Positions 808-35,423 of a stretch of 46,097 nt of DNA are shown piece after piece. The stretch comes from a virus: positions 1 through 46,097 of the IMG/VR virus record IMGVR_UViG_3300049793_000239; one strand, given 5' to 3'. The translations under genes and the position numbers were made by a program. Under the pieces are notes generated by a model that searched no databases, had not been told where the DNA came from, and was given only the letters and a program-made list of their open reading frames with translations. Position 1 is the first letter of the stretch. Each line of letters opens with the position of its first letter.

Positions 808-1038
808 CTAGTTTCGCTTCAATTGCGGCAAAAATGTCGCCGGCGTAATTACTTGGTTTTGCGCACGCTGCGCCGCAAAAGAGCGAATCGCATCCTTCGC
901 CGCTTCAAGCATCCCGTAACACACCAAGTAATTCTCGATCGGCCCGGAAACGTTCACTTGCCCGGTCAACTGGTCGAACGTGATTGACAAGACCAGCGTG
1001 GTACTTGGCGCTGGCTGTTTTTGTCCGTTCTCACTCAA
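808..1038 (-). CDS. Small late protein, unknown role
   Basis: A 76-residue product with a beta-like first half and a helical Ala/Arg-rich second half. I chose the TTG at 1038. It overlaps the stop of the upstream HNH gene (TTGAGTGA) and has a GGAAAG ribosome-binding-like stretch a few bases before it. No domain is recognised. It is likely co-transcribed with the capsid gene and was probably contiguous with it before the HNH gene at 1031-1732 settled between them. Confidence 0.6.
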   Translation of the reverse strand: MSENGQKQPAPSTTLVLSITFDQLTGQVNVSGPIENYLVCYGMLEAAKDAIRSFAAQRAQNQVITPATFLPQLKRN

Positions 1039-1732
1039 TTTCTTTCCACCGCTTACCGCTCCAAATTAATCCAACCATCTGACGCCCGATTCCAAACTCT
1101 TTTGCTACTTGCCGCTGCAACTTTCCAGTGAATCTCAAACTCTTTATCTCTCTGACTTTTGCGTCACTCAACTCAGCGGCGTACTTGTTTCCCCGTATCT
1201 CAATAGACTTCCAAGGACGAGGTCCAGTCTCCTTTTTCCGATACTTCTGTCCTACAAGGCGTAGCTGTTCGCGCATTCGCAGAAGGACATCCTGCAAAGT
1301 CTCAACACTCTTGTGCGGGCATGTCCCATCTTTAGATCGATGCGACCTTGAGCAGTTGCAGTTGTAACACAAGAGTGCATACTTCTCCTTCGGATAACCT
1401 TCCCGACGAGCAAGTAAATAAATTTGCTGCGATTGCAGCCCGCTTTTCCGATGGACATTCCCATCCAAATTCCGATGGTCGAGAGTAAGGAAACGAATAT
1501 CTGGCTCCCCGCAACACTCACACTTCTCACCCATCGCTTCATAAAAATCCAAGCGAGACTTCGCCCAGAATCGTAGCGCGTAACATTGCTTGCAACGATT
1601 CTTGACTGTGCCCCTTGGATTCCTTTGGTCATATCCAGCTCTACTCTCTGGCTGCCTGCCGCTGAAGCACTTATGAAAAGCACTGAGCGATTTTTCAACA
1701 CTGCATTCGTGACAGCGTTTTTTGAGTTCCAT
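1031..1732 (-). CDS. HNH homing-type endonuclease with C-terminal HTH
   Basis: A free-standing DNA endonuclease of the HNH type. The 233-residue product has two N-terminal CxxC pairs (CHEC, then CKQC), a central CECC, the core 'LTLDHRN' and a 'CYNCN' knuckle. It ends in a helix-turn-helix module ('QRQVAKEFGIGRQMV', about residues 203-217) of the kind found in homing nucleases. It lies between the capsid gene and the next late gene. The central core is closely like that of the HNH gene at 44762-45280, and the C-terminal module is like that of the one at 40463-40939. No Shine-Dalgarno is seen. CATGAT lies six bases before the ATG with TTGCGT 17 bases further up, a possible own leaderless promoter. 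The region looks more AT-rich than its neighbours. Confidence 0.85.
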   Translation of the reverse strand: MELKKRCHECSVEKSLSAFHKCFSGRQPESRAGYDQRNPRGTVKNRCKQCYALRFWAKSRLDFYEAMGEKCECCGEPDIRFLTLDHRNLDGNVHRKSGLQSQQIYLLARREGYPKEKYALLCYNCNCSRSHRSKDGTCPHKSVETLQDVLLRMREQLRLVGQKYRKKETGPRPWKSIEIRGNKYAAELSDAKVREIKSLRFTGKLQRQVAKEFGIGRQMVGLIWSGKRWKEIE

Positions 1733-1771: not shown

Positions 1772-2731
1772 CTATGGCCCGTACGAAAAAAAAGTTCCTC
1801 TCCAGCTCGTGGCTCCCACAGAGAAGCGCTGTGTCGAGAGGAACAGCAGCACCTGTGTCTTGAAGTCATCGTCCGTTTGCGCCATCAGCGGTTCGCGATC
1901 GTAGAACTTCAAGAGGTGCCCATCCTTGTTGGCGAGCAGGCCCCACCCGGAAGGCGAGGTCAAGTAGTTAAGTTCCAGCCCTTGGAGGTTCTCTTCGATC
2001 AACGAGTTCAGTTCGTTGTTCGCGGTGTAAGGTTTCCCCGGTGAACCGAGTATCTCTCTGGTGATCCAGCGATTCTGCGGCGCATGAATCAGCCACTTCG
2101 GGCGCACATGCACGGGGATGCCGCGGTCGTCGGGCTGCAGCGTGAACATGTTAATGGCCTGGATAATCGCTGTGAAGCTTTCATCGCTATCCGGCGTCGG
2201 GCGGTTCGGATACGTCCCTGGCGAATTGATGATCGTCGAAATGTTTGGCGCTGTGGTTGTTGCGCTGGACCCGCCCATCAACGGCTGCGCAGTGTTGAAC
2301 AGCGTCACGCCGTTGGTGGTGGTGATGGAAGTCCCGCCCAGGTTGAAGAGTGAAGCCGCTGCCGCTTCGCGCCCGAATAGTCCGCCTCGGGCGTGCGCTG
2401 AAGGAACTTTCCTGACGATGCCGTACTTGTCGTCGGCAATCAGTTGCCGCGTCACTTCCGAGAGCAACCCATATTGCAAGTGAACGTATTTCTTCGTGCC
2501 ACCCTGCAGCATGCCATCCGACTGCGGCCGCGTGCCTTCCGGCATCAAGGGCATCGGCCCAGTGCCGGAGAGCTCGTAGTCGATCTCGTAAGCATCCTCG
2601 CTGGACATCTCGTTCATGTAGTGCGTGTACTGCGGCGCATGCTCTTTGAGGTCGAAGAATTGACAGAATATGTGACGTAACCCAGGAGCCAACAGTGGAG
2701 GAAACATATTTCTTGAGAGAAGGTTGTTCAT
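1772..2731 (-). CDS. Probable major capsid protein
   Basis: The 319-residue product resembles phage major head subunits. It has a short N-terminal segment with 'MFPPLLAPGLR', a 'YEIDYELSGTGPMP' stretch, a long alpha/beta middle and a beta-rich end. Order (putative scaffold, decoration protein, then this) and size support the call. I chose ATG at 2731, with GGAG 11 bases upstream. An ATG at 2758 in the same frame would add nine residues. The start codon overlaps, on the opposite strand, the ATG of the HNH gene at 2730: the four bases CATG serve both. HNH genes flank it on both sides, a usual target pattern for homing elements. HK97 fold is likely but not shown here. Confidence 0.75.
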   Translation of the reverse strand: MNNLLSRNMFPPLLAPGLRHIFCQFFDLKEHAPQYTHYMNEMSSEDAYEIDYELSGTGPMPLMPEGTRPQSDGMLQGGTKKYVHLQYGLLSEVTRQLIADDKYGIVRKVPSAHARGGLFGREAAAASLFNLGGTSITTTNGVTLFNTAQPLMGGSSATTTAPNISTIINSPGTYPNRPTPDSDESFTAIIQAINMFTLQPDDRGIPVHVRPKWLIHAPQNRWITREILGSPGKPYTANNELNSLIEENLQGLELNYLTSPSGWGLLANKDGHLLKFYDREPLMAQTDDDFKTQVLLFLSTQRFSVGATSWRGTFFSYGP

Positions 2732-3194
2732 GTTATACTGTGCTCCTATGCCCTTCAAGGACAGGGAAGTTCAAAAAGCCTACGACAGGGAGAAATACAA
2801 GAAAAACAGAGAGCGCATCATTGAACTTAGGATGCGAAGATACGCGCTCAATAAAGAAAAAGAAGCTGCATATCAAAAGCAGTACGCCGAGGAAAACAGG
2901 AAGAACCTCTCTGCTTACCACAAAAAGTGGAAGAGGGACCGCAGCGCTGAGCAGAAAAAGAAAGACCGCGAGTACGCTAGGCAGTACAGAAATTCTGATT
3001 ACCGAAAAAACCCGGATAAGATTCGCGCCAGATTGAAGGTGTACTACGCCATTAAAACTGGCAAGTTGAAACGCCCGGACCACTGCCTGCGATGCGGCCT
3101 CATATGCACTCCGCAAGGACACCATCCAGATTACTCCAAGCCTCTGAAGGTAGTCTGGCTTTGCGATTCCTGTCATAAAAAAGAGCACTCCTAG
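2730..3194 (+). CDS. HNH-like endonuclease inserted upstream of capsid gene
   Basis: A 154-residue protein with a very basic, coiled-coil-like first two thirds (repeated Lys/Arg/Tyr/Asn) and a C-terminal zinc-binding nuclease core: 'CLRCG', 'GHHPDY', then 'CDSCHKKEH'. This is the layout of small phage HNH enzymes. It lies on the plus strand inside a minus-strand late operon, between the decoration protein and the capsid gene. I chose ATG at 2730, which has AAGG six bases upstream; ATG at 2748 is an alternative. With the first choice its first codon overlaps the capsid start codon on the other strand, and each ribosome site lies inside the other gene. AT-rich like the other HNH genes here. Confidence 0.8.
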   Translation: MLYCAPMPFKDREVQKAYDREKYKKNRERIIELRMRRYALNKEKEAAYQKQYAEENRKNLSAYHKKWKRDRSAEQKKKDREYARQYRNSDYRKNPDKIRARLKVYYAIKTGKLKRPDHCLRCGLICTPQGHHPDYSKPLKVVWLCDSCHKKEHS

Positions 3195-5342: not shown

Positions 5343-5629
5343 TTCTGCCTCCACTCCTTGAGTTCGTTTTCCAAGCCGATAATGTCTTCTAGCGTTGCGA
5401 TTTGTCCGCGCCAAAATGTTTGCTCGATGGTTGCTTCGCTCGTCGTGGGGACTTTGTGAACAATCTTATGCTGCAGGTCCTCCGCCTTGGCCTGGCAATC
5501 CTCCACCAGCTTCAACCATGCTAGCCCCTGGAACAGCAGGACCGCCACTTCCGGGTCTTGGAATAGCGCCGGCCATCTGAATGAGCCGGTCAGCGGGAGG
5601 TCGTGCACCGCCTTGAGCTGCTTGGACAT
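5339..5629 (-). CDS. Small protein overprinting the portal 3' end
   Basis: A 96-residue, largely helical product ('AWLKLVEDCQAKAEDLQ', then 'IATLEDIIGLENELKEW') of unknown function. The ATG at 5629 has a strong GGAGGAG only four bases away, and the product looks like a normal globular or coiled-coil protein. Its first 164 bases lie inside the portal gene in another frame, where the portal reads as a Gly/Pro/Ala-rich tail. It is followed by a GTGA-coupled 47-residue gene. I consider it real; a head-tail or portal accessory role is a guess from position. Confidence 0.7.
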   Translation of the reverse strand: MSKQLKAVHDLPLTGSFRWPALFQDPEVAVLLFQGLAWLKLVEDCQAKAEDLQHKIVHKVPTTSEATIEQTFWRGQIATLEDIIGLENELKEWRQK

Positions 5630-7475
5630 TTTGCTCCTCCGGGAAGTCCACGTTGGGGATGTACTCTTCCGGCTGGTCGGAAAGTTGGAAGTCGCGGATG
5701 ATCTGCTGCATAAGCCGCGTCTTGGCTTTCACAATCGATATCATCCACTTCTTGTAGTGCGGCGGAATCCCCTGATTCTCGATCGCCTGAATCATCTGCG
5801 AAGTTTCTTTGGTGTACATCATGATCGCTTGGTTTAGCAGTAGTTCGTTCTGTTTCGTCACTTCTTTGTTGGCGCTGCCGGTTGCCGCGCGAATCGGGAT
5901 GCGCACCTTGCGTTCCAAATAATCACTGAGCGCTTCCTCAAGCAGTTTGTCATCGAGGCCGAAGAGTGATCCTTTCCTGCCCAGCCCCATCGCGCCGTAC
6001 ATGTCGGTAACCAGTCCGATAAGTTTGACGTGCGAGTGCCGGAAGCCTGACAGCCGATGAGCGACGCGCGTATTCGAATCCTGCATCACTGCCAGCGTGC
6101 CCATGCTGCCGAATTTCCCTTTCTTGTCCGCGCTTCCCGCACCCATGCCCGCAACGGCCGGGCCAACGCCGAATCTTTCACGCGCTTGTGCGATCATGGC
6201 TTGTTCGTTTTGCAGCGATAGCCCGCTCATGGCCGCATCAGCAACGTTGTAGTGCTCGAATTCGTCTTCCCTGAATGGTACGGTGGCGCCGGGGAATAAC
6301 TGGAAATTCTTGTCGATGTTGCGGTTCTGCGGCGAGATGCGATTCACTCCCAAGATCCCCCAGGTAATCGCGTCATTCCGCTGGTTCTTCGCTGTGCTTA
6401 CTTCTTCTTGCGCGTCTTTGCCCATTTCCGCCATGCCCATGCCGTCCACGGACAGTTGCGTCTCGATGATGGGAATCTGGTTGTCAGGGATGAAGTTGAA
6501 GACCTGGTTGAGCATGGTCTTCGTTTCCCAGTGATACCAGCAAATCAGCCGGTACTTTTTCTTTGAGTGATACCAGTAGAAGTAGCACTCGTGAACATCC
6601 CACTCCGCGAGGATTCTTTCCTCTGTGGAGGTGATGCCTTTTTTCTGGTTCTCGCGCTTCTTAACTTCCGGAGGGCCGTAGCGGTCAGGCTTGCCAAGAA
6701 TCTTCTCGACATCCTCTTTGCGATAGAAGCCTTTGAACACGCGCTCTTGCAAGTCGCGCTTGCTCAGCGTGATAACCCGCGCGATCAGATCGGAGTCCTC
6801 GAATCTCGGACAGTTCGGGTCGTAGAGCACTTGCTCGTAGCGGAGGTTATCCACCTTCGGGCCTTCGTAGAGCGTTTCATCTTGGAAGTCTTTGGCCTTC
6901 TTCGCTTCGTCGTAGCCGATGTAGACCGCTTCAATTTTCTCTTCCGGGCGCACTACTACCCAGGCTTTGGCAAGCTTCGCGCTGTCCATGAACCATTTGT
7001 TCTCGATGGGGTAGAGGTCTAGCTCGCACGGCTCGTAACCCGCGTAGTCAATGAATTGCTCTAGAACGCGAGACTTCTCGCTGTTGTGATGCGCTTCTTG
7101 CTCGTTGGCTGCTTTGGTGAAATAGCGGAAATAAACAAGCGGAGAAGTAGCGTAAAGCAGGCCCATGACACGAGCGGCGAGATCGTCGCATGACTCACCA
7201 ACGAGTTGGTGGACGAGATTCGAACAGTTGGGGAAAGGCCAAGATTTCTTTTCTTCACGTGGTTTGCCCTCAGCGATGCGCCGCCATTCGGGAACTTTCT
7301 TGGTGTGCAGGATTTCAAGCTGCTTCTTTTTTGTTTCTACCTGGCTGTGGACCCATTTATTGATGGCTTCGTCTTCCTCTGGGGAGAACGAAGCCTCACG
7401 GAGCTCGAAGCGCCGAGCAGTTCGGTACGATAGTTTAGGAGTTTCTTCAGCGGGGAGCTGTGGAATCGCAGCCAT
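5466..7475 (-). CDS. Portal protein
   Basis: The portal ring at the capsid vertex through which DNA is packaged and ejected. The 669-residue product has the size and layout of the large portal proteins of short-tailed phages: a helical basic start, a central alpha/beta body ('YEQVLYDPNC', then 'AEWDVHECYFYWYHSKKKYR'), the long helical stem and crown region after about residue 350 ('EVSTAKNQRNDAITWG'), and a disordered Gly/Pro-rich tail. It follows the large terminase gene, the usual order. The ATG at 7475 has no clear Shine-Dalgarno. A TATGCT box lies 12 bases before it, after a terminator-like hairpin. The last 164 bases are shared with another gene in a second frame. Confidence 0.88.
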   Translation of the reverse strand: MAAIPQLPAEETPKLSYRTARRFELREASFSPEEDEAINKWVHSQVETKKKQLEILHTKKVPEWRRIAEGKPREEKKSWPFPNCSNLVHQLVGESCDDLAARVMGLLYATSPLVYFRYFTKAANEQEAHHNSEKSRVLEQFIDYAGYEPCELDLYPIENKWFMDSAKLAKAWVVVRPEEKIEAVYIGYDEAKKAKDFQDETLYEGPKVDNLRYEQVLYDPNCPRFEDSDLIARVITLSKRDLQERVFKGFYRKEDVEKILGKPDRYGPPEVKKRENQKKGITSTEERILAEWDVHECYFYWYHSKKKYRLICWYHWETKTMLNQVFNFIPDNQIPIIETQLSVDGMGMAEMGKDAQEEVSTAKNQRNDAITWGILGVNRISPQNRNIDKNFQLFPGATVPFREDEFEHYNVADAAMSGLSLQNEQAMIAQARERFGVGPAVAGMGAGSADKKGKFGSMGTLAVMQDSNTRVAHRLSGFRHSHVKLIGLVTDMYGAMGLGRKGSLFGLDDKLLEEALSDYLERKVRIPIRAATGSANKEVTKQNELLLNQAIMMYTKETSQMIQAIENQGIPPHYKKWMISIVKAKTRLMQQIIRDFQLSDQPEEYIPNVDFPEEQNVQAAQGGARPPADRLIQMAGAIPRPGSGGPAVPGASMVEAGGGLPGQGGGPAA

Positions 7476-10032: not shown

Positions 10033-10584
10033 TTAAGCTGCTGTTCCCATCGCTGCGCTGCGCTTCACTTGACGCAATTCCAAATGCCCGCGAATGTGGC
10101 ACAACGCATCCTCTTCGCGCATGATGACGATGGTCGCTGTCACTTCATTGCCGTGCACGTCGAGTGCGCTCATGTCGTAAGCGTGCCCGGAAAAACTTGG
10201 GTAGATGATGGAGTCGCCTCGCTTGTAGTTCTTCACGCTCTCGCCAGCGCTAACGATAGTTCCCGTTGTCGGCCGGCGCTCGGCGCTGCCTGGCACAATG
10301 AGCGTTCCGCCCTTTCCTTTGCAATCCGGGCAAGGAATGATGCCGTCACCTGAGCACTGCGAACATTTTCCGTCTTTCACGATGACGCTCTTGCCCGTGC
10401 CTTTGCAATTCACGCAGCGAATCACCGAGATTTCATTGCGCACGTCACGCCCCATGCAACGCGGGCATTCGTGCCCCGAGCGGAAATCATCCTGCAGCAC
10501 GATCATGCGGTCGTGATGCGCTTCGAATTCCATCGTTCCGAGTTTCAATACGTTCGACTGCTGGTCTATCTTGATTTCAGGCAT
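10033..10584 (-). CDS. GroES-like co-chaperonin with inserted DnaJ-type zinc finger
   Basis: The 183-residue product looks like a co-chaperonin (Cpn10) split by a zinc-finger insertion. Residues 24-33 ('HDRMIVLQDD') match the first GroES strand. Residues 92-101 ('GGTLIVPGSA') match the mobile loop that docks on GroEL, and 108-132 ('GTIVSAG' through 'KRGDSIIYPSFSG') match the rest of the barrel. Between strand and loop lie four CxxCxGxG-type repeats (C40/C43, C57/C60, C74/C77, C85/C88) like the cysteine-rich region of DnaJ. I chose ATG at 10584, with AAGGAG four bases upstream. The gene precedes the large terminase, so a role in folding capsid or terminase proteins with host GroEL is likely. 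Confidence 0.85.
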   Translation of the reverse strand: MPEIKIDQQSNVLKLGTMEFEAHHDRMIVLQDDFRSGHECPRCMGRDVRNEISVIRCVNCKGTGKSVIVKDGKCSQCSGDGIIPCPDCKGKGGTLIVPGSAERRPTTGTIVSAGESVKNYKRGDSIIYPSFSGHAYDMSALDVHGNEVTATIVIMREEDALCHIRGHLELRQVKRSAAMGTAA

Positions 10585-11250: not shown

Positions 11251-11280
11251 TATATACAGTAAGGAGAGATAGATCGTCAA
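11251..11280 (-). promoter_or_regulatory. Near-leaderless promoter of RHH gene
   Basis: On the minus strand TTGACG (11280-11275), an 18-base spacer and TATATA (11256-11251) precede the ATG at 11240 by ten bases. The start of transcription would fall only a few bases before the start codon. It overlaps the last codons of the small terminase gene. Confidence 0.5.
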
Positions 11281-11786
11281 TCTTTTTCAGGCCGGCCCAC
11301 AACTTCTGCTAGCAGCGGATTCTCGCTGTCGCTCTGCAATGCGCGGATCTTCTGCAAGCTGCCCTTGGCCATTTCGCGTTCTAAGTTGGTGATTTCGTGG
11401 ATGATATTTCCTGTGTGCTCAATGTTTGTCGGCGCGTATGAACCTTTCAAGCGAAACGTCATGTCCAGCGCGTCTTTTCGAATGCCAAGCGCTTCAACGT
11501 CGTGCGTCTCAATCACTTCACCTTGGAACGCGAAGAACTTCGTCTCTTTCGCTCTGAGAAGAGGCTTTAGGTATTTTTCAATGAGCGCTTCATCGGTAAG
11601 CCCGTGTTTGTCAAGGAGATGGGGGAACTTCAGCCGGATTCCTTCTAACGCTTGATGTCCAGCTTGACCAGGGTGTTTTGTTGTGTAACCTGCTTTGCGC
11701 GCGGCGTCTGTAATACTCATCCCTTTTGAAAGGTTTTTGATTAACGCTCGGCGCCGCGGAGTGAGCTGTGGAGGTCCTTCAGGCAT
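11277..11786 (-). CDS. terS: Terminase small subunit
   Basis: DNA-recognition subunit of the packaging motor. The 169-residue product has an N-terminal helix-turn-helix ('RRRALIKNLSKGMSITDAA', then 'AGY'), a helical middle, and the 'LRLKGSYAP..IEHTG'-like signature around residues 112-125 ('FRLKGSYAPTNIEHTG') that is common in phage small terminases. It opens the leftward late strand, divergent from the early genes. The ATG has no ribosome site; a -10 box ends exactly six bases before it, so a leaderless message is likely. Confidence 0.82.
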   Translation of the reverse strand: MPEGPPQLTPRRRALIKNLSKGMSITDAARKAGYTTKHPGQAGHQALEGIRLKFPHLLDKHGLTDEALIEKYLKPLLRAKETKFFAFQGEVIETHDVEALGIRKDALDMTFRLKGSYAPTNIEHTGNIIHEITNLEREMAKGSLQKIRALQSDSENPLLAEVVGRPEKD

Positions 11787-14203: not shown

Positions 14204-15263
14204 CACAGCGATTGTCCACGCGCCACAGCATCAGGTTCTCTCGGTTCCCGAAGCCATTGAGAAAGTGCTAATTCTTGGAGACTTGAGTTCGCTCACGCCA
14301 AGCGACCGCATCGATTATTACAATCGGGTATGCCGCTCATTGGCGCTGAATCCGCTGACCATGCCGTTCTCCTACATTCTGTTCCGCGAAGGCGATGGCG
14401 GCCCAGCGAAACTCTCTCTCTATGCGAACAAGTCTTGCACCGAGCAATTAAGGAAGATTCACGGGGTGTCGATCATTCCGCCATTCCGCAAGAGCATTCG
14501 CGACGGCATCGTGACCGTCGAGGTGGATGCGCGAGACAAGACCGGGAGAACAGACACAGCCAGCGGCAGTGTCCCACTCTTCAAGTACAAGGACGGCAAG
14601 CGTATCGAGTTCGAGGGCCGGGACCTATGCAATGCGGACATGAAGTCTGAAACAAAAGCAAAAAGACGCGTAACGCTGTCGATTTGTGGGCTCGCTTTCC
14701 TTGATGAGAGCGAACTGGACACCATGGAGATCGTCGGTGGAGTGACGCGCGAAGGCCGCATCTACTACCACCAGGGCCAAGAGTCTGCCAAAGAGCCCCA
14801 AGATAGCGAGTCTATCAATACATTGAAAGCAAATGGTTTATGGTGCGATGAGCACCAGTCGACAAAGAGTGCCAACCACCTTAAAACATGCACATCCGCA
14901 AAGAGCTTGGTAGCGGCCGAAGCCAGTGGAGGAGAGAAAACCGACACTGAAGGGCGAATCTCAAGTCGTCCGGCCGCTGCCAGGACTTCTCCGCAGCCAA
15001 GCCAGGCACAGCCAGCTCTGTTCTTCACCATGCCGGAGAGCTTTAACGGGCACTACGCCGAATGGGTGAATATCAAAGAATTTGTCGCGGCGCGCCCGGA
15101 CTTCGTTGATCCGCTCCGACTGCTGTTCACGGGACATAAGGGGAAGAAAACAAAAGCAGGTACCACGCTAGTGCCAGCCGAAGAACTGCCCGCGTTGCTT
15201 GAGGCGCTCGCCGGAGATCTCTCCATCACTGTGAAAAAGTTGAAACCGCCAAAAGGTGCATGA
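14124..15263 (+). CDS. RecT-like single-strand annealing protein
   Basis: A 379-residue protein resembling phage annealing recombinases. A start linker (1-35) is followed by a core of about residues 45-205 with 'YYNRVCRSLALNPLTMPFSY', 'KLSLYANKSCTEQLRKIHG', and the characteristic 'ETKAKRRVTLSICGLAFLDESELDTM'. The remainder is a low-complexity linker and a small C-terminal domain (about 300-379). It should bind single strands and promote annealing during replication and concatemer formation, which matters because no polymerase genes are visible. The ATG has AAGGAAG upstream and starts 80 bases inside the KTSC gene. The exact superfamily (RecT, Erf or Sak) is not settled by eye. Confidence 0.72.
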   Translation: MPNSKTRISKRISAVPSKPRRKKSASSTAIVHAPQHQVLSVPEAIEKVLILGDLSSLTPSDRIDYYNRVCRSLALNPLTMPFSYILFREGDGGPAKLSLYANKSCTEQLRKIHGVSIIPPFRKSIRDGIVTVEVDARDKTGRTDTASGSVPLFKYKDGKRIEFEGRDLCNADMKSETKAKRRVTLSICGLAFLDESELDTMEIVGGVTREGRIYYHQGQESAKEPQDSESINTLKANGLWCDEHQSTKSANHLKTCTSAKSLVAAEASGGEKTDTEGRISSRPAAARTSPQPSQAQPALFFTMPESFNGHYAEWVNIKEFVAARPDFVDPLRLLFTGHKGKKTKAGTTLVPAEELPALLEALAGDLSITVKKLKPPKGA

Positions 15264-17272: not shown

Positions 17273-17549
17273 TCCACCGCTAAAACTGAATGAGCGTGTC
17301 GCCGAGATTCGCTGGTCGAAAGGTTCTTGCGGGGTAAGTGGGTGTGCGGACCCTGAATGTGTTTGCGCCCTTTGCGCTCAGGCCATTGGCATCAAGGAAT
17401 ACGACCCCCGATGGCAGAACCACGACGAAGACTGTTTCGGGTGCGAACTCTGCGAGGATGACGTGCCGATGATACTATTCCGCGGCGAAGGCAAAAACAT
17501 GAAACAAGCCGCCTTCCACACCAAGTGCTTTGAGAAACTACTGTGCTGA
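17265..17549 (+). CDS. Cys-rich putative zinc protein
   Basis: A 94-residue protein with about eleven Cys residues in clusters: 'CGVSGCADPECVCALCA' (about 23-39), 'CFGCELC' (near 58-64), 'HTKC' near the end. The arrangement suggests two zinc sites. ATG at 17265 has AGGAG six bases upstream. It lies directly before the methyltransferase gene and overlaps it by seven bases. Function unknown. Confidence 0.7.
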   Translation: MASPPLKLNERVAEIRWSKGSCGVSGCADPECVCALCAQAIGIKEYDPRWQNHDEDCFGCELCEDDVPMILFRGEGKNMKQAAFHTKCFEKLLC

Positions 17550-18547
17550 TCCGCGCTGATGCCCGAAGCATTCCGCTAGCAGATCAATCGGTCAACTGTG
17601 TGGTGACTTCCCCGCCGTACTGGCGGCAGCGCGATTATAAAATCTCTGGCCAAATTGGACTCGAGCAAACGCCGGAGGAATACTGCGAAAATCTAGTCAA
17701 GGTCTTCTGTGGAATATGGCGCGTACTGCGCGACGATGGCACGGTTTTTCTGAATCTCGGCGATAAATGGGCTTCTGGTGGCAATGGAGGGGGCGGATCC
17801 TTCATGGAGGGGCGTCAAGAGGCCTGGGCGCACGCCAAAGATGCCAAAGGTTGGAGGAGCCCGCCAGATGGTTACAAGGACAAGGATCTCGTAGGAATCC
17901 CTTGGATGGTTGCCTTCGCGCTCCGCTCGAGTGGGTGGTATCTGCGGCAATGCAACATCTGGGCAAAACCAAATTGCATGCCGGAATCCGTAACCGACCG
18001 CTCCACCATTTCGCACGAGTATATCTTCCAGTTCAGCAAGAGCGCGCATTATTTTTACAATTCCGATCTGGCGCGTACTCCACAGATGCCAAGCACGGAA
18101 ACTCGCCTTGCCCATGATGTAGAGAATCAAACCGGGAGCGACCGAGCCAGTGGGCAACGAAAGACCAATGGCCCGATGAAGGCTGTTAGACGTTCCGATA
18201 AACAGCGTGGGCACTCACGAAGACACAACGGTTTTAATGACCGATGGGATGCCATGAGCGTCCAAGAACAGATGGCCAATGGAGCAAATCTCCGGTCAGT
18301 CTGGTGGGTTAGTCCAGCGCAAACGACAGACGAGCATTACGCGGTGATGCCTGAAAAGATTGCACGAATTTGCATCCTAGCGGGCTGCCCTGCTGGCGGG
18401 ATTGTCTTTGACCCGTTTGCAGGATCAGGAACAACAGTGCTGGTAGCAAGGAACCTGCAATGCCACGGCATCGGCCTGGAACTAAACCCCGAGTACCTCG
18501 AAATCGCAAAAAGGCGTCTGGCGCAATCGGTGATGACTTTTCGATGA
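17543..18547 (+). CDS. DNA methyltransferase (beta class, probable N4-cytosine)
   Basis: Transfers a methyl group from S-adenosylmethionine to DNA, most likely to protect phage DNA or alter host recognition. The 334-residue product has the catalytic motif 'TSPPYW' at residues 22-27 and the cofactor-binding 'DPFAGSGTT' at about 290-298, with 'GIGLELNPEYLEIAKRRL' after it. Catalytic motif before cofactor motif marks the beta class, and TSPPYW is usual for N4-cytosine enzymes, though N6-adenine cannot be excluded. GTG at 17543 overlaps the previous stop. No partner restriction enzyme is seen. Confidence 0.88.
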   Translation: MLIRADARSIPLADQSVNCVVTSPPYWRQRDYKISGQIGLEQTPEEYCENLVKVFCGIWRVLRDDGTVFLNLGDKWASGGNGGGGSFMEGRQEAWAHAKDAKGWRSPPDGYKDKDLVGIPWMVAFALRSSGWYLRQCNIWAKPNCMPESVTDRSTISHEYIFQFSKSAHYFYNSDLARTPQMPSTETRLAHDVENQTGSDRASGQRKTNGPMKAVRRSDKQRGHSRRHNGFNDRWDAMSVQEQMANGANLRSVWWVSPAQTTDEHYAVMPEKIARICILAGCPAGGIVFDPFAGSGTTVLVARNLQCHGIGLELNPEYLEIAKRRLAQSVMTFR

Positions 18548-19828: not shown

Positions 19829-20130
19829 GAATCTGGCGGCAGGGAGATATCCTTATCACAGAAGTAAAAGCAATTCCGAAAGGCACGAAGGTCCGCAAGT
19901 CGGGCCACATTCTCGAAGGAGAAGCAACTGGCCACGTCCACCGCATCGCCGAACTGGACCAAGCCGAAGTGCTGGAAGTCGGCGAGAACGGTCTGTTTCT
20001 GTCCGTGAGCGAGGCCGGCGTCTCGATCATACATCCGGATCATGGCCCTATCACTTTGCCTGCTGGCAATTTCCAGATCATCCGCCAGGTTGAGTACGCT
20101 CCTGAAGCAATTCGTAATGTGCAGGACTGA
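19825..20130 (+). CDS. Conserved-type small phage protein
   Basis: A 101-residue beta-rich protein with 'RIWRQGDILITEVKAIPKGT', 'GEATGHVHRI', 'HPDHGPITLPAGNFQIIRQVEY' and 'PEAIRNVQD'. Proteins with this plan occur in many phages and bacteria without known function, and often next to DUF6745 proteins, as here. The start is fixed by the ATGA overlap and GGAG nine bases upstream. Confidence 0.78.
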   Translation: MRIWRQGDILITEVKAIPKGTKVRKSGHILEGEATGHVHRIAELDQAEVLEVGENGLFLSVSEAGVSIIHPDHGPITLPAGNFQIIRQVEYAPEAIRNVQD

Positions 20131-20152
20131 GGCAGAAAGCGAGAAAAGCTCA

Positions 20153-21307
20153 ATGCGTAAGTACAGCCTAACAGAAGAGCACCGCGCGCAACTCAAGCCT
20201 TGGGCCGAACGCTGGATTCGCAACGCTATGAGCACGGCAGCGATGACTGAAGAAGACCGCAATATTTGCATTGGGGCGGTGAAGCGGCTTTATCGCGCTG
20301 CTAACTTAGAGCCTCCTCCAGATCGGCGCATCATCTTTGTGTCATCGCCTTTCGTGATGCGTTTCGCGGCTGGCTTTGCGGCTTGGATTTGGTATTGTCA
20401 TAGGAATAAAACGCGCGACGCCACGCGCGCCGCCACGTACGCCGCCACGCGCGCCGCCACGCGCGCCGCCACGTACGCCGCCACGCGCGCCGCCACGGAC
20501 GCCGCCACGCGCGACGCCACGTACGACGAAAATCAATGGTTCATTCTGAACGGAGATCTTGTTCGCTTAGCGCACGAATTAGGAGTTGGCAAGGCTGGCT
20601 TGCAGTGCGCTTACAACGCTTACAACTTCTGGCAAGGTGGGAATCAGTGGTCTGGGTGGGATGCTTTCCTGTCCTTCTTCCGCCACATCGTAAAACTTGA
20701 CATCAATTACGCTGCTTACGAATCATGGGAAACGCTCTCACTCCATTCCGGGCCCCGCTGTGTGCATACTGAATTTTGTATTATCAGTGATAGGCCGGAA
20801 GTGCTTCTGGTGGACGATCAGAACAGGCCGCACAACGCGACTGGCCCATTCTGCCGCTGGCGCGATGGCAGCGAACTCTACTCATTTCACGGAACGCGAA
20901 TGCCAGCGCGCATCATCAGGCATCCCGAGAGTATTACTGCGAAAGAGATTCTTGCCGAGCAGAATGCCGAAGTGCGCCGCGTGATGATCGAGTGCATGGG
21001 CATGGAGCGCTTTATCGCCGAAGCGGGAGCCAAAAGCATTCACGAAGATGAATTCGGAGAATTGTTCTCGGTCGATCTGCCGGGCGACCCGGAAGGGAAG
21101 TTGGTTACCGTGCGTGTATATAACTCCACGCCAGAGCCAGACGGCAGCCGGAAACCTTATTTCCTGCGCGTTGATCCCGAATGCCGCCCGCTGTTTGTCG
21201 GCGGGAAGAAAGGCAAGCCGCAAAAGCAGACAGCCACTAATGCTGTAGCGGCAAGCTTTGGCAAGACTGGGAAAGAGTACGCTGCATATCTAATAGCGCA
21301 GACCTAA
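20153..21307 (+). CDS. DUF6745-like protein with Ala-Thr repeat
   Basis: A 384-residue protein. The first 75 residues are helical and include 'AVKRLYRAANLEPPPDRRIIFVSSP'-like sequence (about 42-66). Residues 89-124 are nine four-residue repeats (AAT plus Arg, Tyr or Asp). The rest carries 'HNATGPFCRWRDGSELYSFHG', 'PARIIRHPESITAKEI' and 'NAEVRRVMIECMG', then 'YFLRVDPEC'. This is the plan of DUF6745 proteins, whose function is unknown. ATG at 20153 was chosen as the first after the previous stop; GAG lies nine bases upstream. It is the longest gene of this transcription unit. Confidence 0.8.
   Translation: MRKYSLTEEHRAQLKPWAERWIRNAMSTAAMTEEDRNICIGAVKRLYRAANLEPPPDRRIIFVSSPFVMRFAAGFAAWIWYCHRNKTRDATRAATYAATRAATRAATYAATRAATDAATRDATYDENQWFILNGDLVRLAHELGVGKAGLQCAYNAYNFWQGGNQWSGWDAFLSFFRHIVKLDINYAAYESWETLSLHSGPRCVHTEFCIISDRPEVLLVDDQNRPHNATGPFCRWRDGSELYSFHGTRMPARIIRHPESITAKEILAEQNAEVRRVMIECMGMERFIAEAGAKSIHEDEFGELFSVDLPGDPEGKLVTVRVYNSTPEPDGSRKPYFLRVDPECRPLFVGGKKGKPQKQTATNAVAASFGKTGKEYAAYLIAQT
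20417..20524 (+). repeat. Nine tandem 12-base repeats in coding sequence
   Basis: Units of the form G(A/C)C GCC ACG followed by CGC, TAC or GAC, encoding Ala-Ala-Thr plus a variable residue (Arg, Tyr, Arg, Arg, Tyr, Arg, Asp, Arg, Tyr). The DNA is nearly identical between units except at the fourth codon. Length variation by slippage is likely. Confidence 0.9.
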
Positions 21308-24180: not shown

Positions 24181-27100
24181 TTACTTGGCGGTCCAAGAAC
24201 CCGTCGCCCCATCGCAGACATAAAACGTTGTGGTGGTTGTGCCGTCCGTGCGCAGATAAATAGAACCGCCCTTAGATGTCGTACACAGCCCACCAGCGGG
24301 GACCCCGGCTCCGCTGGTAATCGACGAGACTGAACCAGATGAGGAGGATACAAGATACGTTGGTGCAACCATGCCTTGATTACCGGGTAATAATGAAGTA
24401 GGCCCCCCCAAAGACGTACTATTTTCGACTGGAGAACCAACGCTGCCACTGCTCCAAATCGTAGATGTAACATTAGGAGCAAATGGATTCCCACCAAAGG
24501 AAGCATGTCCCCCGCCATTGCCTGCAAATACATAATAGCCCTTAGGATTTCCCCCGACTGGCGTCCAATTTACTGTGATCGTTTGGTTACCGCCGGTGGT
24601 CGTACAACCAGTAGATTGAGGCGACGGCGTACCTTCTAGGTTATTCCACCAGAGAGGCTGCACCACGAAATTCCACGTGCCAATTGGAACCGAGCCGCCT
24701 GCACTTACCGAGCAAGTTGGTGCTGCGGGAGGCGGACCATTCACAAAGATGGAATCGCTATTGTAGCCTACCGAGATTCCGCCCGGCCCAGTGACATTAA
24801 AAATTAGTGAGCGAATGTTTGCCTGCGAACTTATTGCAGTCTGAGTTTGACTGGATAGCGAATTGTTATACCCTGCCGGAAAAGCGGAAAAACCACTTGT
24901 TGCAAATTGTACTGTCCCAGTAACGGACGGAGAGTCAAACGAGTAACCACTGGGAACACATCCGCTATTAAAAACCTGAACGGAACCGTAAAAGGCCGAA
25001 ACGCAGGAGTGCCCAACCGTGTCTATAATAATAGGAAATCCAGCTTCGGCAAGCGAGATCCCTACGCTCGCGCCCCCTACACTAATAAAGGGCGTGTAAC
25101 CGCCGTTGTAGTGATCTTGGACAATTTTAAGGTTTGCCCCTGAGCTATTTCCTCGGAAAATATATCCAGAAGTTACATTAAATGCACTTCTTATTATAGC
25201 GTCGCCACAACCGTTGCAAAAGAACGCCGTATTATGTGTGGCACCGTCAATTTGAGTGCCAGTACCGAAGCTGACCTTATCCATTATGATACCAGACGAA
25301 GATTGGCCACCCCCATTTGATTCCCGAAGTATCAAACCAAAGCCCATCTTGTCGGTACTGGCAGTATATGTCGTCCAGTTGACATCCTTGAAATTGATGT
25401 TGAAACCCTGCTCCGCAAGCATCAAGAGGACGCCATTTCCTACAACACCTTGAAAATTGATGCCTTCCATGGTGCAACTGTTTGAACTGTCTAAATATAT
25501 CCCTGGGACAGCTTCCTCCACATATATTTTTGGATAGAAACCCCAGGTATTTGCACCTCCGCCTCCCAGTTGTCCCGCCGCTGTTGAACGGTCACCTATG
25601 TATCGAAGACCTGAACATTTCAATGCTATCGTTTCATGTAGCCACAATCCGCCACTTTGTAGAACTGAAAATCTATAGGGAGTTAGGTCAGTATAGCTGT
25701 TAATAACGAATCTATTACCAGATGGATCATCGGGAATAAAAAGCATTCCTGCATTATTCGTTGCTGCGGCAGCAACTAATCCTGGTCCAGCATCCAGACG
25801 AACGCCCGCTCCTGAAACATTGGCACCAGCGTTTGCACTTAATGTAAGAGTAGTCGTGCCCGCGCCGGACAAAATCGTAGTTGAAAGATTGTTGTTTGCT
25901 GCTACCGCTGGAGGCATTGTTGGAATCCAGGAAGGAAAACTCATATTACTCATCAGGTCCGAACCAAAATCATCGAAGGTCGTATCTGTTGCAGGTATGG
26001 CCCCATTTTGAGGCCGACTTACACCAATCAGAGTTTCGGCCCCGCTAGCTCCCCCATAGATGTAATAAAGCCAAGCGTTGGTAACGGCATTCCAAGAAAG
26101 ATGATTGGCTGCGTAAAAGGTTACGGTTCCGCCGGTAGAGCTAGTTGTAGCTCCATTTCCTGTGTTAATCGCCGTATCCGTGAATGTAAAATGTGTGGCA
26201 TCAGTTGCGGCGACTGTCCTCCAGCCGCGAAAACTTGAATCGGATGGAGTGCCTCCAATATAAGCCTCGGCACCCACGCCAGCAATCAGCAGAGGTGTGG
26301 AGGCCGAGGTTGTGCACGTTACAAGAGTAACGGCGCGCGTGCATGATGAAACATTAACAGTTACCGCGCCACGCGCTACCAGACCTGTTGTAGTGCAAAC
26401 CTCAGAAGTGGCTGCTGTGTAACCTCCACCAGTAGTGCGGGCAATGATCTTATAACAGGTAGTTGTGGAGCCGGATGCGCTAGGAACAGTGAGGCCGGTG
26501 CCTGTGCCCATTTGGGCTAGAACGTTGGTAATAGCCAGTCCTGTTGGGACAGTCAACCCTGAAGCCGTTCCTGCGCCATAGACAACAACCCCGTCACCGT
26601 TAATGAAGGTGCTCGCTGAAGAAATTGTAGCAACAGCCGAACCTGAAGACATAGTTGCTGTAAGGCCACCTGCACAGGGTGTGGTGTGCACGTCGCACGT
26701 GCGAGCACCAAATCTTGTTATGTCAACATAAGGATTTGGCCCCTTGAATCCGACGTTCACATCCAAATTTAGCGGATTCGGCGTAATCACTGGACTCACC
26801 AGCACGCCAGGATTCCCGCCAGGGCCGACTTTGATCCAGGCCCCACCAACGCAGGAATAGAAATCTCCGGTTAGCGTGTTCACCGCTTGTTGTCCATCAC
26901 TACAAGGACCGGTTGGCGCACCAGAAAAAAGAGCCGTGCTAGTTCCTCCCACATTCGCCCACACCGTGCAGCTTTGCACTACCACCGTTTGACACACACG
27001 TACCAGTTGAGTGGTCAGGTTGTAATATTGCGCTGCGACCACCGCGCTGACGATCTCTGCGTCGGAGTAAGCTTTTGTGAATGGCCCGGGACTGGAGAGA

Positions 27101-27498
27101 GCGATGGCGATGGCTGGCGGTGTGGCACTGATCGTCTGCGTCCCACCCGTCACTCTGGTATTGGCGGTCGTGGAACAAGAAGAAGTTGCCAACGGGCAAA
27201 AGGTCACAATCCACGTCGAGCCTGGCGGTAAGATAGCGCTATTCGAAGGGATGCTCCGCGAGTAGTGCCCCGAACCGTCAAGAGCACCGGAGATGACTTG
27301 CGACAACGCTCCGCCCGTCCATGTGTATTGCCCAATATTCGGAAAGTTTTGGTTGGGCACAAGCTGGAAACTGTAGGTACCTCCAAACCAAACTTGAGCG
27401 CCCGCATCCGTCACCGTGCCTGAGACTGTGGTGCTCTGCGCTTGCGCACCGACCGCGTACCCCAGGAAGAGGAAAGTCAACAGCAGTATTCTTTTCAT
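24181..27498 (-). CDS. Exported beta-helix tail-spike-like protein
   Basis: A 1105-residue protein starting with a Sec signal peptide ('RILLLTFLFLGYAVGAQA', cleavage likely before Gln21). Residues about 22-175 form a domain shared with the next two upstream genes ('TTVSGTVTDAG', 'GGTYSFQLVP', 'YSDAEIVSAVVAAQYYN'). 'PYVDITRFGARTC' (near 257-269) looks like the entry to a pectate-lyase-type beta-helix, which suggests a glycan-binding or depolymerising spike. The end is Gly/Ser-rich. The middle, roughly 25,000-26,000, is clearly AT-richer than the flanks, which suggests acquisition. A signal peptide is not expected on a tail spike. The first 25 codons closely match those at 29243. Confidence 0.8.
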   Translation of the reverse strand: MKRILLLTFLFLGYAVGAQAQSTTVSGTVTDAGAQVWFGGTYSFQLVPNQNFPNIGQYTWTGGALSQVISGALDGSGHYSRSIPSNSAILPPGSTWIVTFCPLATSSCSTTANTRVTGGTQTISATPPAIAIALSSPGPFTKAYSDAEIVSAVVAAQYYNLTTQLVRVCQTVVVQSCTVWANVGGTSTALFSGAPTGPCSDGQQAVNTLTGDFYSCVGGAWIKVGPGGNPGVLVSPVITPNPLNLDVNVGFKGPNPYVDITRFGARTCDVHTTPCAGGLTATMSSGSAVATISSASTFINGDGVVVYGAGTASGLTVPTGLAITNVLAQMGTGTGLTVPSASGSTTTCYKIIARTTGGGYTAATSEVCTTTGLVARGAVTVNVSSCTRAVTLVTCTTSASTPLLIAGVGAEAYIGGTPSDSSFRGWRTVAATDATHFTFTDTAINTGNGATTSSTGGTVTFYAANHLSWNAVTNAWLYYIYGGASGAETLIGVSRPQNGAIPATDTTFDDFGSDLMSNMSFPSWIPTMPPAVAANNNLSTTILSGAGTTTLTLSANAGANVSGAGVRLDAGPGLVAAAATNNAGMLFIPDDPSGNRFVINSYTDLTPYRFSVLQSGGLWLHETIALKCSGLRYIGDRSTAAGQLGGGGANTWGFYPKIYVEEAVPGIYLDSSNSCTMEGINFQGVVGNGVLLMLAEQGFNINFKDVNWTTYTASTDKMGFGLILRESNGGGQSSSGIIMDKVSFGTGTQIDGATHNTAFFCNGCGDAIIRSAFNVTSGYIFRGNSSGANLKIVQDHYNGGYTPFISVGGASVGISLAEAGFPIIIDTVGHSCVSAFYGSVQVFNSGCVPSGYSFDSPSVTGTVQFATSGFSAFPAGYNNSLSSQTQTAISSQANIRSLIFNVTGPGGISVGYNSDSIFVNGPPPAAPTCSVSAGGSVPIGTWNFVVQPLWWNNLEGTPSPQSTGCTTTGGNQTITVNWTPVGGNPKGYYVFAGNGGGHASFGGNPFAPNVTSTIWSSGSVGSPVENSTSLGGPTSLLPGNQGMVAPTYLVSSSSGSVSSITSGAGVPAGGLCTTSKGGSIYLRTDGTTTTTFYVCDGATGSWTAK

Positions 27499-27503
27499 CG
27501 TAA

Positions 27504-29243
27504 TCAGTTCACTGTCTCAATAATCAACTGGCGTTGCGTCGCGGAATTGCTGGCGCTTGCGTTAGAAAAAGCGAACGTAGTTTGTAGAAATAGCTGCGCC
27601 GTCGAGTCAATCGTGCCCACCGTCGCGGTGTTGGTGTCGCCAAACTCGCTATCCGCAGCGGTCGCGAGTGTCGAAAGATCGATGAGAAACTCTCCGCTGG
27701 CTTCATAGGCCGAGGATGCCCCTGCGGTTTGCGTTGTTACTTCGCTGCGCAGGCTGAAATTGTCGTTGGTGATCTGTACGGTGCCGAGTGCCGTGGATTG
27801 AATACTGATCGGAGTGATGACTGTGCCGCTGCCGCAACCAGAAACGGTGCAGAGTTCGATCTTGACGGTCATTTGCGAGGTGGAAGCGGCGGGAGTCGAA
27901 TAAATCCCTTTCGCTTTGATGCGCAACGAGCGACCGACACGGTTCAGTGTTCCGGCAGGAATCGTGCAGGCCATTAGATTTTGATCAGTGGCAACGTTGG
28001 CGTTCACCGTGACCGGCGCGACGTTGGTACAGCTCCATGATCCACTATAGGATTGATCTCCTGCACCATTGTTTACGTTGAAATGGCTGGTTTTCGTCGT
28101 CGTGTCATACGCGACGACGAGTTGATTCGTAACCGCACCAAAACCCCCAGATCCTATCAGGTAAGCAGAACCGGCTTGAGGTCGCCCGGAACCGTCGATC
28201 GTGAAAAAGGTACTGCCAGAGCCGCCGACCGCAAAATAACTATTCAAAGACCCTACGCTGTTTAAGTTCAAAGTTGCCGCTGTACCTGCTTGAGCAACTA
28301 TAGAAAGTGTTCCGTTGGTCCCATTCACAACCGACCCTGGTATCCCGCCGAACGCACCGCCATTGTTAAATTGGAGTTGCATAGTTGAGCCGCCGGGCGT
28401 AGATGCGGCTGTAGTCCATGAGGTTTGCTGTGGATTCCCGCCATCCGTTTTGAGTACTTGCCCATTGGTCCCCGTTGCGGTGGGCAGGTTGATCTGATTG
28501 GGAGTCCCGGCAATTGCGGCCGCTCCAACGGTCGCGCTCCCGCTTGTCGCTCCCGGAGCCGTCAACAGCGTTGCTATATTGGTACCAGTACCAGTGGCGT
28601 CGAGCGTTGCTCCAGTTCCTACGTGCATCGCTGCCGTAGTATTCGTTCCGCTGGTGATGGCGCTGAAGGCTACACCTCCTCCAGCTCCAGATCCCACATT
28701 CGCCCAGACCGTGCAACTCTGCACTACCACCGTATTGCAAATACGCTCCAATTGAGTTGTTAGGTTGTAGTATTGCGCTGCAACAACCGCGCTCACAATC
28801 TCAGTGTCGGAATAAGCGCGCGTGAATGGCCCGGGACTCGTCAAGTTGATGGCGATGACCGGCGGCGTCACATTCAGCGTCTGAGTGCCTCCGCTAATCG
28901 TCGTGTTCGTAGCGTCGAAGCAAGAGGAAGTAGCGAGCGGACATACCGTCAACTTCCATTTCGAGCCTTGCGGGGAGATGGCGGTGTTCGAAGGAACGGA
29001 CTGGCTGTATGCTCCGGAGCCATTAAGCGTCCCTGCGATGGTCTGCTGAAGAGCGCCGCCTGTCCACGTGTATTGCGCGATGTTAGGAAAGTTTGGGTTG
29101 GGCACTAACTGAAAACTGTAGGTCCCTCCAAACCATGCCTGCGAGCCCGCATCGGTGACAGTGCCAGATACCGTCGTTGACTGACCTTGCGCGCTGACCG
29201 CGCACCCCAGGAAGAGGAAAATCAACAGTTGTATTCTTTTCAT
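27504..29243 (-). CDS. Exported protein with shared N-terminal domain
   Basis: A 579-residue protein with a Sec signal peptide ('LLIFLFLGCAVSAQG', cleavage near residue 21), the same 150-residue N-domain as its neighbours, a Gly/Thr-rich fibre-like middle and a beta-sandwich-like C-terminal third ('GNVATDQNLMACTIPAG'-like region through 'TFAFSNASASNSATQ'). ATG at 29243 has GAGG six bases upstream and lies just after the preceding stop; ATG at 29255 is in frame. DNA of the signal-peptide region is highly similar to that at 27498, evidence of a recent duplication. Receptor binding or cell-surface function is inferred. Confidence 0.78.
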   Translation of the reverse strand: MKRIQLLIFLFLGCAVSAQGQSTTVSGTVTDAGSQAWFGGTYSFQLVPNPNFPNIAQYTWTGGALQQTIAGTLNGSGAYSQSVPSNTAISPQGSKWKLTVCPLATSSCFDATNTTISGGTQTLNVTPPVIAINLTSPGPFTRAYSDTEIVSAVVAAQYYNLTTQLERICNTVVVQSCTVWANVGSGAGGGVAFSAITSGTNTTAAMHVGTGATLDATGTGTNIATLLTAPGATSGSATVGAAAIAGTPNQINLPTATGTNGQVLKTDGGNPQQTSWTTAASTPGGSTMQLQFNNGGAFGGIPGSVVNGTNGTLSIVAQAGTAATLNLNSVGSLNSYFAVGGSGSTFFTIDGSGRPQAGSAYLIGSGGFGAVTNQLVVAYDTTTKTSHFNVNNGAGDQSYSGSWSCTNVAPVTVNANVATDQNLMACTIPAGTLNRVGRSLRIKAKGIYSTPAASTSQMTVKIELCTVSGCGSGTVITPISIQSTALGTVQITNDNFSLRSEVTTQTAGASSAYEASGEFLIDLSTLATAADSEFGDTNTATVGTIDSTAQLFLQTTFAFSNASASNSATQRQLIIETVN

Positions 29244-29251
29244 CGTATACC

Positions 29252-31354: not shown

Positions 31355-31355
31355 T

Positions 31356-31376
31356 CCCCTCCTAAAAAGGGAGGGG
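31356..31376 (-). promoter_or_regulatory. Hairpin covering a ribosome binding site
   Basis: CCCCTCC and GGAGGGG form a perfect 7-pair stem with a 7-base loop. On the minus-strand RNA the 3' arm is the Shine-Dalgarno of the 700-residue exported protein, one base before its GTG. It could hold translation low until melted. Confidence 0.5.
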
Positions 31377-31545
31377 CTTCTCAGGCTACGTATGAGTTTC
31401 GAACCTCTGCGTTGGCGCCTGAAGGCTCGATCCAAGCCCACTTGGTACGGAAAGGAAACTACACCAATGCAACGGCAAAAGCAACAGACTATAAACCGTT
31501 CGCTTGCCCCCAGCCCTGAAGGGCAGGGATTGCGCTCACTCTTTT
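31377..31545 (-). other. Leader region without a gene
   Basis: About 170 bases between two exported-protein genes. The frame of the downstream gene is open through it, but the translated sequence (Cys, Arg and Pro-rich) does not look like protein. I see no convincing promoter. It is unusually long for this operon and, with the hairpin that follows, may be a regulatory leader. Confidence 0.4.
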
Positions 31546-32241
31546 TCATGGCGCAGTAAACCCCTGAATGCTCGCTGTGCAGGTCTGGGTAGCCACACAA
31601 ATGATGCATACTGCGTTCGCTGCTGTGATTTTGATCGGCGTCCCAAAGGAATGCCAGACAGGAAGATTGGCGGTGTTAGCGGGATAAGGAATCTTGCCAG
31701 TAGTGATGCTGGCGACGGCCGGGAAGAAGGTAGCCACTCCAGTTGCGCAATTGGTGCCAGTCCCGAATCGCAATGTGTACGAGCCAGCGATCGATGTATC
31801 GCTGACGACGGTAATGTCGGTGACGTAGAGTGACGTACTGGCGGCTGGGGCTGCTTGACATTGCGTAAGTGTCGCCCCAATTGCGGTTACGCCGCACGAC
31901 CAAAGAAGCGGGCTGCCATTCCTTGTATACAGAACGCCATCGAGTCCCACTACTCCACGGCGAACATTTCCAGCCGTAGCGGACGCTGATAAAGCTGAAC
32001 TTTGCGACTCGAAGCCGTCAGCGATCACGTTCGCAGGAGCCGCAGCATTATTTGCGGCATCGAAAATTGCTCCTGCATTTCCGACAACTCCAACCTTTTG
32101 CACGCCAGCGGCAGCCGTTGCAACAGCGCTCCCGCCGATGTTCTGCACGTTCACGGGCTCAGGAGCGGAAACGTTCAACTGCCCCGATGCAACCCAAGCG
32201 CAGGCAAGAATCAAAGCGATAGCGAGGGCGATGCTTCTCAA
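31546..32241 (-). CDS. Exported beta-rich protein
   Basis: A 231-residue protein with a Sec signal peptide ('SIALAIALILACAWVASGQ', cleavage before Gln near residue 21). The mature part is Ala/Thr/Gly-rich with 'LYVTDITVVSDTSIAGSYTL', a plan like phage fibre head or tip domains, and a Cys-rich end ('CIICVATQTC'). TTG at 32241 was chosen: it follows the upstream stop by one base and gives a compact signal peptide. A TTG at 32259 is in frame. It seems related in plan to the 230-residue neighbour. Confidence 0.7.
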   Translation of the reverse strand: MRSIALAIALILACAWVASGQLNVSAPEPVNVQNIGGSAVATAAAGVQKVGVVGNAGAIFDAANNAAAPANVIADGFESQSSALSASATAGNVRRGVVGLDGVLYTRNGSPLLWSCGVTAIGATLTQCQAAPAASTSLYVTDITVVSDTSIAGSYTLRFGTGTNCATGVATFFPAVASITTGKIPYPANTANLPVWHSFGTPIKITAANAVCIICVATQTCTASIQGFTAP

Positions 32242-35240: not shown

Positions 35241-35423
35241 GTGAGTCTCGAACACGCTCTTCGTAATGCACCGCTTGGACTTCTCAAATTCCTTGCGTAT
35301 GGTTTGTGGATTTTGATTGCCTGTTACGTCGCCTTTTCGTTTTTCGCCGATCCGCATGGATTGTTTTTTGGTGTGTGCTTCGTAGGACTCATTTACTGCG
35401 TCCGCGCTATTTGGCGGAGTTAG
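35241..35423 (+). CDS. Two-pass small membrane protein on the opposite strand
   Basis: A 60-residue protein with two transmembrane helices ('LAYGLWILIACYVAFSFF' and 'FFGVCFVGLIYCVRAIW') joined by a short 'ADPHGL' turn. GTG at 35241 has GGAAGG six bases upstream. It is transcribed against the late operon and its last four bases overlap the stop of the gene at 35420. A holin, antiholin or superinfection-exclusion protein would fit; expression separate from the late strand favours the last two. Confidence 0.65.
   Translation: MSLEHALRNAPLGLLKFLAYGLWILIACYVAFSFFADPHGLFFGVCFVGLIYCVRAIWRS

Follow-up and report, generated by a model that had tools for sequence, protein, structure and literature searches.

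A predicted phage GroES-type co-chaperonin with a putative DnaJ/BSD2-type zinc finger inserted ahead of its mobile loop

The window (the whole stretch of viral DNA that was analysed, 46,097 nucleotides) carries a head-gene module with the order TerS, small genes, co-chaperonin, large terminase (TerL), portal, three genes and capsid (Table 1). The co-chaperonin gene lies exactly where an earlier note on this DNA had placed it, at 10033-10584, and its strand, which that note had left unstated, is minus: the plus-strand frame over the same interval contains an internal stop, while the ATG at 10584-10582 is preceded by an AAGGAG-like ribosome site, as read from the sequence. The translation also bore out the proposed order of a GroES strand (D25-R26-M-I-V), a finger, GGTLIVP and barrel. 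Between barrel strand 23-33 and the mobile loop at 93-107 lies a 53-residue insert with eight cysteines; the barrel then continues through residues 108-165. The description of the insert as four CxxCxGxG-like repeats held for the four CxxC pairs and for the GxG of motifs 2-4, but the first motif (CPRCMGRD) has no GxG. The mobile loop (residues ~92-107) reads GGTLIVPGSAERRPTT.

Table 1. Features of the co-chaperonin locus, with positions in the window unless a related contig is named.
Feature	Position	Strand	Basis or remark
Major capsid protein	1772..2758	minus	phrog_371 E=4.1e-6; relatives at 25-29% identity annotated as capsid in named phages
Portal protein	5466..7475	minus	phrog_1216 E=7.4e-10
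Large terminase, 815 aa	7570..10017	minus	phrog_38 E=2.6e-28; start 15 bases past the co-chaperonin stop
Complete co-chaperonin gene, 183 aa, including the putative zinc-finger insert	10033..10584	minus	Pfam, PHROG, family conservation, dN/dS
N-terminal extension, residues 1-22	10519..10584	minus	predicted beta hairpin 12-21; ordinary GroES lacks it
First Cpn10 barrel strand, residues 23-33 (DRMIV)	10486..10518	minus	AlphaFold2 predicted strand 26-31
Hinge ahead of the finger, residues 32-39 (DDFRSGHE)	10468..10491	minus	family consensus DEFRSGYE
Predicted DnaJ/BSD2-type zinc finger, residues 40-92	10309..10467	minus	CxxC pairs 40/43, 57/60, 74/77, 85/88
Mobile loop, residues 93-107, bearing the predicted hydrophobic motif for GroEL binding (GTLIVP...RRPTT)	10264..10308	minus	alignment to Cpn10/Cpn20
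Remainder of the Cpn10 barrel, residues 108-165, without roof hairpin	10090..10263	minus	AlphaFold2 model, Foldseek, alignment
C-terminal tail, residues 166-183 (GHLELRQVKRSAAMGTAA)	10036..10089	minus	conserved; no counterpart in GroES
Small terminase-like gene, upstream of the co-chaperonin	11277..11786	minus	phrog_51 E=9.3e-6
Co-chaperonins with an extra CxxCxGxG pair at the roof	L008:3121-3768; L037:5049-5732; L051:3710-4480

The Cpn10 identity of the protein is supported by profile searches. Pfam Cpn10 (PF00166) matched over profile positions 21-76 with 23.1 bits, above its gathering cut-off of 21.1, and the PHROGs search returned phrog_3188 (co-chaperonin GroES) at E=1.5e-6. The Cpn10 profile matched 20 of 21 family members (E<=0.1), and the best PDB sequence match was the enlarged Cpn10 relative Cpn20/chaperonin 23 (PDB 7ekq), which is a tandem duplication of Cpn10 whereas the phage lid carries an inserted zinc domain. 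An AlphaFold2 model built on 55 family sequences reached a mean pLDDT of 84 and a pTM of 0.69, compared with a pLDDT of 75 for a weaker, earlier model with 21 sequences. Counted in ten-residue blocks, pLDDT was 83-94 in the finger and mostly >90 in the barrel, with a mean of 97 for residues 21-30 and low values at the end of the C-terminal tail. Foldseek against the PDB ranked first the GroES of two GroEL-GroES complexes, human Hsp10, crystal GroES, T4 gp31 and Thermus Cpn10; the top eight were all Cpn10, GroES or gp31 (probability 1.00), with TM-scores by target length of 0.56-0.72 for the top six and 0.51-0.72 for Cpn10 matches overall. The targets have 75-108 residues while the alignments are ~155 columns long, so the insert appears as a gap, and the RMSD of these gapped alignments was 5-9 Å, which makes the overall superposition a rough one.

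The earlier note had named a model without a single Cpn10 barrel, or a finger of an unrelated fold, as grounds for giving up its reading. Residues 23-33 and 93-165 were predicted as one Cpn10 barrel by AlphaFold2 and Foldseek, and the finger profile was DnaJ/BSD2-like. The note's view of one phage protein in which a DnaJ-type finger interrupts a Cpn10 domain at the mobile loop is supported. Sequence and predicted fold both speak strongly for a function as a co-chaperonin lid. The barrel and the GG-plus-hydrophobic mobile loop are common to GroES/Cpn10 and the phage lid, but the latter has 183 aa against ~95 aa and differs in the eight-cysteine finger before the mobile loop, the missing roof hairpin and the N- and C-terminal extensions. 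Within the loop, residue 95 is I, L or V in 55/55 family members, P98 is present in 44/55 and P105 is invariant; one member (L002) has a weakened motif, GGLLASSD. The hydrophobic motif, predicted to bind GroEL, is kept. The hinge is strongly conserved, with 86% mean identity across the family and invariant D32 and G37.

For the insert, the DnaJ_CXXCXGXG profile (PF00684) matched the window protein over its full length (1-65) with E=3.6e-4 and 21.2 bits, below the cut-off of 32.7, and matched 21/21 family members at E<=0.1 (best 6.1e-8). A finger-only profile gave ten matches in the PDB at E<=0.01: nine were DnaJ, BSD2 or DnaJ-like chains, including DnaJ type I proteins and mitochondrial Hsp40, and the tenth and last was anti-TRAP. 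The insert is therefore best described as a putative DnaJ/BSD2-type double zinc finger in the N-terminal limb of the mobile loop, with predicted zinc sites. Its four CxxC pairs, three of them with GxG, follow the order of DnaJ (type I Hsp40; PDB 1exk), but the Pfam scan of the window protein gave no match to a J domain, there is no DnaJ substrate-binding domain, and the finger is housed in a Cpn10. Across the family the finger positions other than cysteine and glycine have a mean identity of 34%, and the spacing from the first to the second CxxC pair varies widely (11-29 residues). Elsewhere in the window, at 14584-14721 (minus strand), DnaJ gives another weak match, which looks like a chance antisense one.

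Relatives were collected by iterated searches of viral contigs, which yielded one, next five and then about thirty, and a search with TerL found 443 related terminases, of which the best 80 loci were examined. The fused gene was present as a full or partial copy in 61 of these 80. In thirteen of the other 19 loci the sequence upstream of TerL is shorter than 0.72 kb, and six (L055, L064, L065, L087, L107 and L113) have room at this place yet show no Cpn10; a plain Cpn10 upstream of TerL was found in none of the best 80 of 443 loci. Altogether 58 distinct full-length environmental phage proteins with the fused architecture were obtained, and all eight finger cysteines are invariant in 58/58. 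Over seven close pairs dN/dS was 0.06-0.17, and the gene is therefore under purifying selection and not a chance frame. The C-terminal tail has 60% mean identity in the family, with G166 invariant. The fused lid is encoded by a family of uncultivated phages and is not a one-off.

The roof of the barrel (residues ~114-122) spans 9 residues in 45/55 members, which is ~9 residues shorter than in Xanthomonas GroES (3nx6), and hence the GroES roof hairpin is missing. Absence of the roof is not decisive against GroES membership, because T4 gp31, which partners GroEL and is essential for capsid-protein folding, also has no roof loops (PMC6318259). Like T4 gp31 (PDB 1g31), the window protein is a predicted phage co-chaperonin associated with head genes and lacks roof loops, and it would be expected to use host GroEL; gp31, however, has no zinc finger and is not a close relative by sequence (10% identity in the Foldseek alignment). 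Three relatives (L008, L037 and L051) carry a second CxxCxGxG pair of ~30 residues exactly at the roof position. They are scattered on the family tree, where well-supported branches require three changes. These could be separate gains, losses or the outcome of recombination; the roof inserts of L008 and L051 are alike, which makes recombination one possibility.

The same gene order, with the co-chaperonin directly upstream of TerL, was found in ~60 related contigs (in L025, TerL was not detected). Relatives of the capsid gene in named phages are only 25-29% identical, and in seven of seven distant capsid relatives inspected (L114-L120, from QDWS535, Pag-Yong1, CRP-902, RW, HTVC023P and two metagenomic phages) a plain GroES is encoded near the capsid gene. 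These plain GroES proteins have 107-146 aa without any CxxC, and three genes, or ~2-2.6 kb, separate each of their genes from the capsid gene downstream. In HTVC023P-type pelagiphages GroES reportedly belongs to the core genes (PMC9599517). A co-chaperonin of their own therefore appears to be needed by phages with this capsid type, and the presence of a plain GroES upstream of the capsid gene in seven phages of unrelated hosts may reflect a general rule for this capsid type. As in the window lineage, the named phages have a phage co-chaperonin beside a related capsid gene, but their plain GroES sits between portal or early head genes and capsid while the fused lid precedes TerL; I infer that in the window lineage the finger-bearing form takes over the role of the plain GroES at a new position.

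Given the plain GroES that phages with a distantly related capsid protein encode among their head genes, a head-protein client of the phage lid is moderately likely on the evidence of gene neighbourhood. A head or packaging client had been suggested earlier from the position of the gene, and this fits both its place before TerL in the ~60 contigs and the plain GroES beside distant capsid genes. The major capsid protein would be the most likely folding client, with the portal as the next candidate; at ~36 kDa the capsid protein would not need an enlarged cage. A phage-encoded GroEL was found neither in the window nor in seven related contigs, several of which are fragments, and host GroEL is therefore the expected partner. 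A heptameric lid on host GroEL is likely.

The explanation that I favour, with an even chance of being right as a whole, is that of a GroES-type phage lid on host GroEL whose fingers hold or steer a head-protein client. Late in infection, seven copies would form a ring capping host GroEL, this ring would carry seven fingers at the rim of the GroEL lid, and the chamber would fold a phage head protein, most probably the major capsid protein. T4 gp31 is the precedent for such a lid. Counting against this explanation are the modest size of the capsid protein, which can do without an enlarged cage, and the six loci that have room upstream of TerL but show no Cpn10. The fingers may then hold or steer the client at the rim on entry or release, as BSD2 does with Rubisco large subunits. 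BSD2, the nearest stand-alone relative (chloroplast; PDB 6ekb), has the same type of finger and no J domain and works with the chaperonin-dependent client Rubisco; it acts after the chaperonin, not before (PMC5859369), and it is a separate small protein, whereas the phage finger is part of the lid. A more specific version, in which seven DnaJ-type fingers capture the client and feed the chamber or receive from it, with a second zinc knuckle closing the roof in three relatives, is possible but less likely than not. If true, it would merge an Hsp40/BSD2-like holding step and an Hsp10 lid in one protein.

The fingers would presumably act at the lid rim, be it in client holding, GroEL contact or spacing. 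By analogy, client holding is favoured by what DnaJ-type fingers do elsewhere and by BSD2, which works on a chaperonin client; against it, the finger surface is variable, unlike a fixed client-binding surface. In DnaJ itself, the zinc domain 'participates, although is not essential' in substrate binding, and is largely dispensable under reducing conditions (PMC4428491). A GroEL-contact or spacer role of the finger is compatible with these data to the same degree as capture of unfolded protein. The finger may thus be structural or contact GroEL and leave clients untouched: it could lengthen or stiffen the mobile loop, raise the lid, or outcompete host GroES through contacts with the apical domain. 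I consider this a real possibility that falls short of probable. The insertion site, within the N-terminal limb of the GroEL-docking loop itself, speaks for it, and the fixed cysteines and glycines, otherwise variable sequence and differing loop lengths of the finger are as in a scaffold. In T4 gp31 the mobile loop is longer than that of GroES (22 vs 16 residues), the chamber is larger, and gp31 competes with GroES for GroEL (PMC6318259). However, a longer loop would not require a two-zinc fold that is invariant in all 58 proteins, and the other known DnaJ-type fingers belong to protein-binding chaperones.

The tight linkage to TerL, with 15 bases between the two genes in the window, would also suit a former co-chaperonin whose Cpn10 fold was recruited for head assembly or packaging, with a finger that binds DNA, terminase or a portal subunit. 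A weak secondary match of relatives to phrog_931 ('head morphogenesis') and the conserved N- and C-terminal extensions, which are unknown in GroES, point the same way. Such a protein would nevertheless be free to lose its hydrophobic loop motif, which has been kept (in weakened form in L002), and in distant relatives a plain GroES is encoded among the head genes; I therefore judge this improbable.

Since there are four CxxC pairs and the zinc domain of DnaJ has a weak thiol-reductase activity (PMC4428491), the finger could serve in thiol-disulfide or zinc/redox chemistry, keeping client cysteines reduced or sensing stress. This is very improbable, because the candidate clients are almost without cysteine (one each in the capsid and scaffold-position proteins, none in two neighbours and six in the portal); moreover, all eight finger cysteines are invariant together, as at metal-only sites. 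Zinc alcohol dehydrogenases, too, have a structural zinc lobe in their GroES-like domain, but the idea that the protein is a fragment or relative of these enzymes can practically be dismissed: the ADH_N match (PF08240; E=0.039, 14.7 bits) falls below its cut-off of 23.5 while Cpn10 exceeds its own, dehydrogenases rank under GroES in Foldseek (TM by target 0.10-0.17 vs 0.51-0.72 for Cpn10), and the 183 aa contain no further dehydrogenase domain. The zinc lobe of alcohol dehydrogenases has four cysteines, not eight, and lies elsewhere in the fold.

Both halves of the protein are of known kinds. New, as far as tested, are that they are joined, that the insert lies at this site and that a phage lineage has fixed the arrangement. 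A tblastn search of 50,697 named-phage records with three family members as queries found no phage with the same fusion, and returned plain GroES-like or weak partial matches only. Scans of GTDB contigs contained no prophage or host copy of the fusion, only separate GroES or DnaJ, and no host copy was found at E<=1e-12 in 396 genomes of one phylum, taken from an Acidobacteria MAG; other hosts are possible. No single family in Pfam, NCBIfam or PHROG holds the fusion of Cpn10 and finger, and searches of the open full-text literature (subscription papers and preprints lie outside it) found no account of a Cpn10 with a zinc-finger insert. GroES, among the best-studied chaperone components, was considered a minimal barrel plus loop, and here a second module of chaperone type has become fixed in a widespread phage lineage, placed within the GroEL-docking loop. 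The fused lid offers a compact, testable system for asking whether a lid can join in client selection or hand-over, and bears on why some phages must supply their own co-chaperonin for capsid folding. It also attaches a likely function to a head-module gene carried by hundreds of uncultivated phages.

Several other genes of the window deserve mention. TerL has 815 aa against the usual ~560, with an intein-like insert whose Hint module (residues 307-399, E=1.5e-4) begins CFPPQAPVLMSD and ends near ATKNSH; the match to the L022 terminase spans this insert too (query 2-808), so that terminase may likewise carry an intein. An HNH/endonuclease VII-like gene lies directly downstream of the capsid gene (1031-1732, minus strand), and a similar gene follows the L040 capsid gene. 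A plus-strand block contains a DNA methyltransferase (17543-18547; N6_N4_Mtase, E=1.8e-43) and a DUF6745 protein (20042-21307; E=5.3e-36). A 427-aa ATP-grasp protein resembling phosphoribosylglycinamide synthetase (PurD; E=3.4e-11) is encoded at 33559-34842 on the minus strand among unassigned large genes. Five large proteins (574-1105 aa) encoded on the minus strand at 24181-31609 and 35420-39165 had no Pfam or PHROG match at E<=0.001 and are presumably tail or virion proteins.
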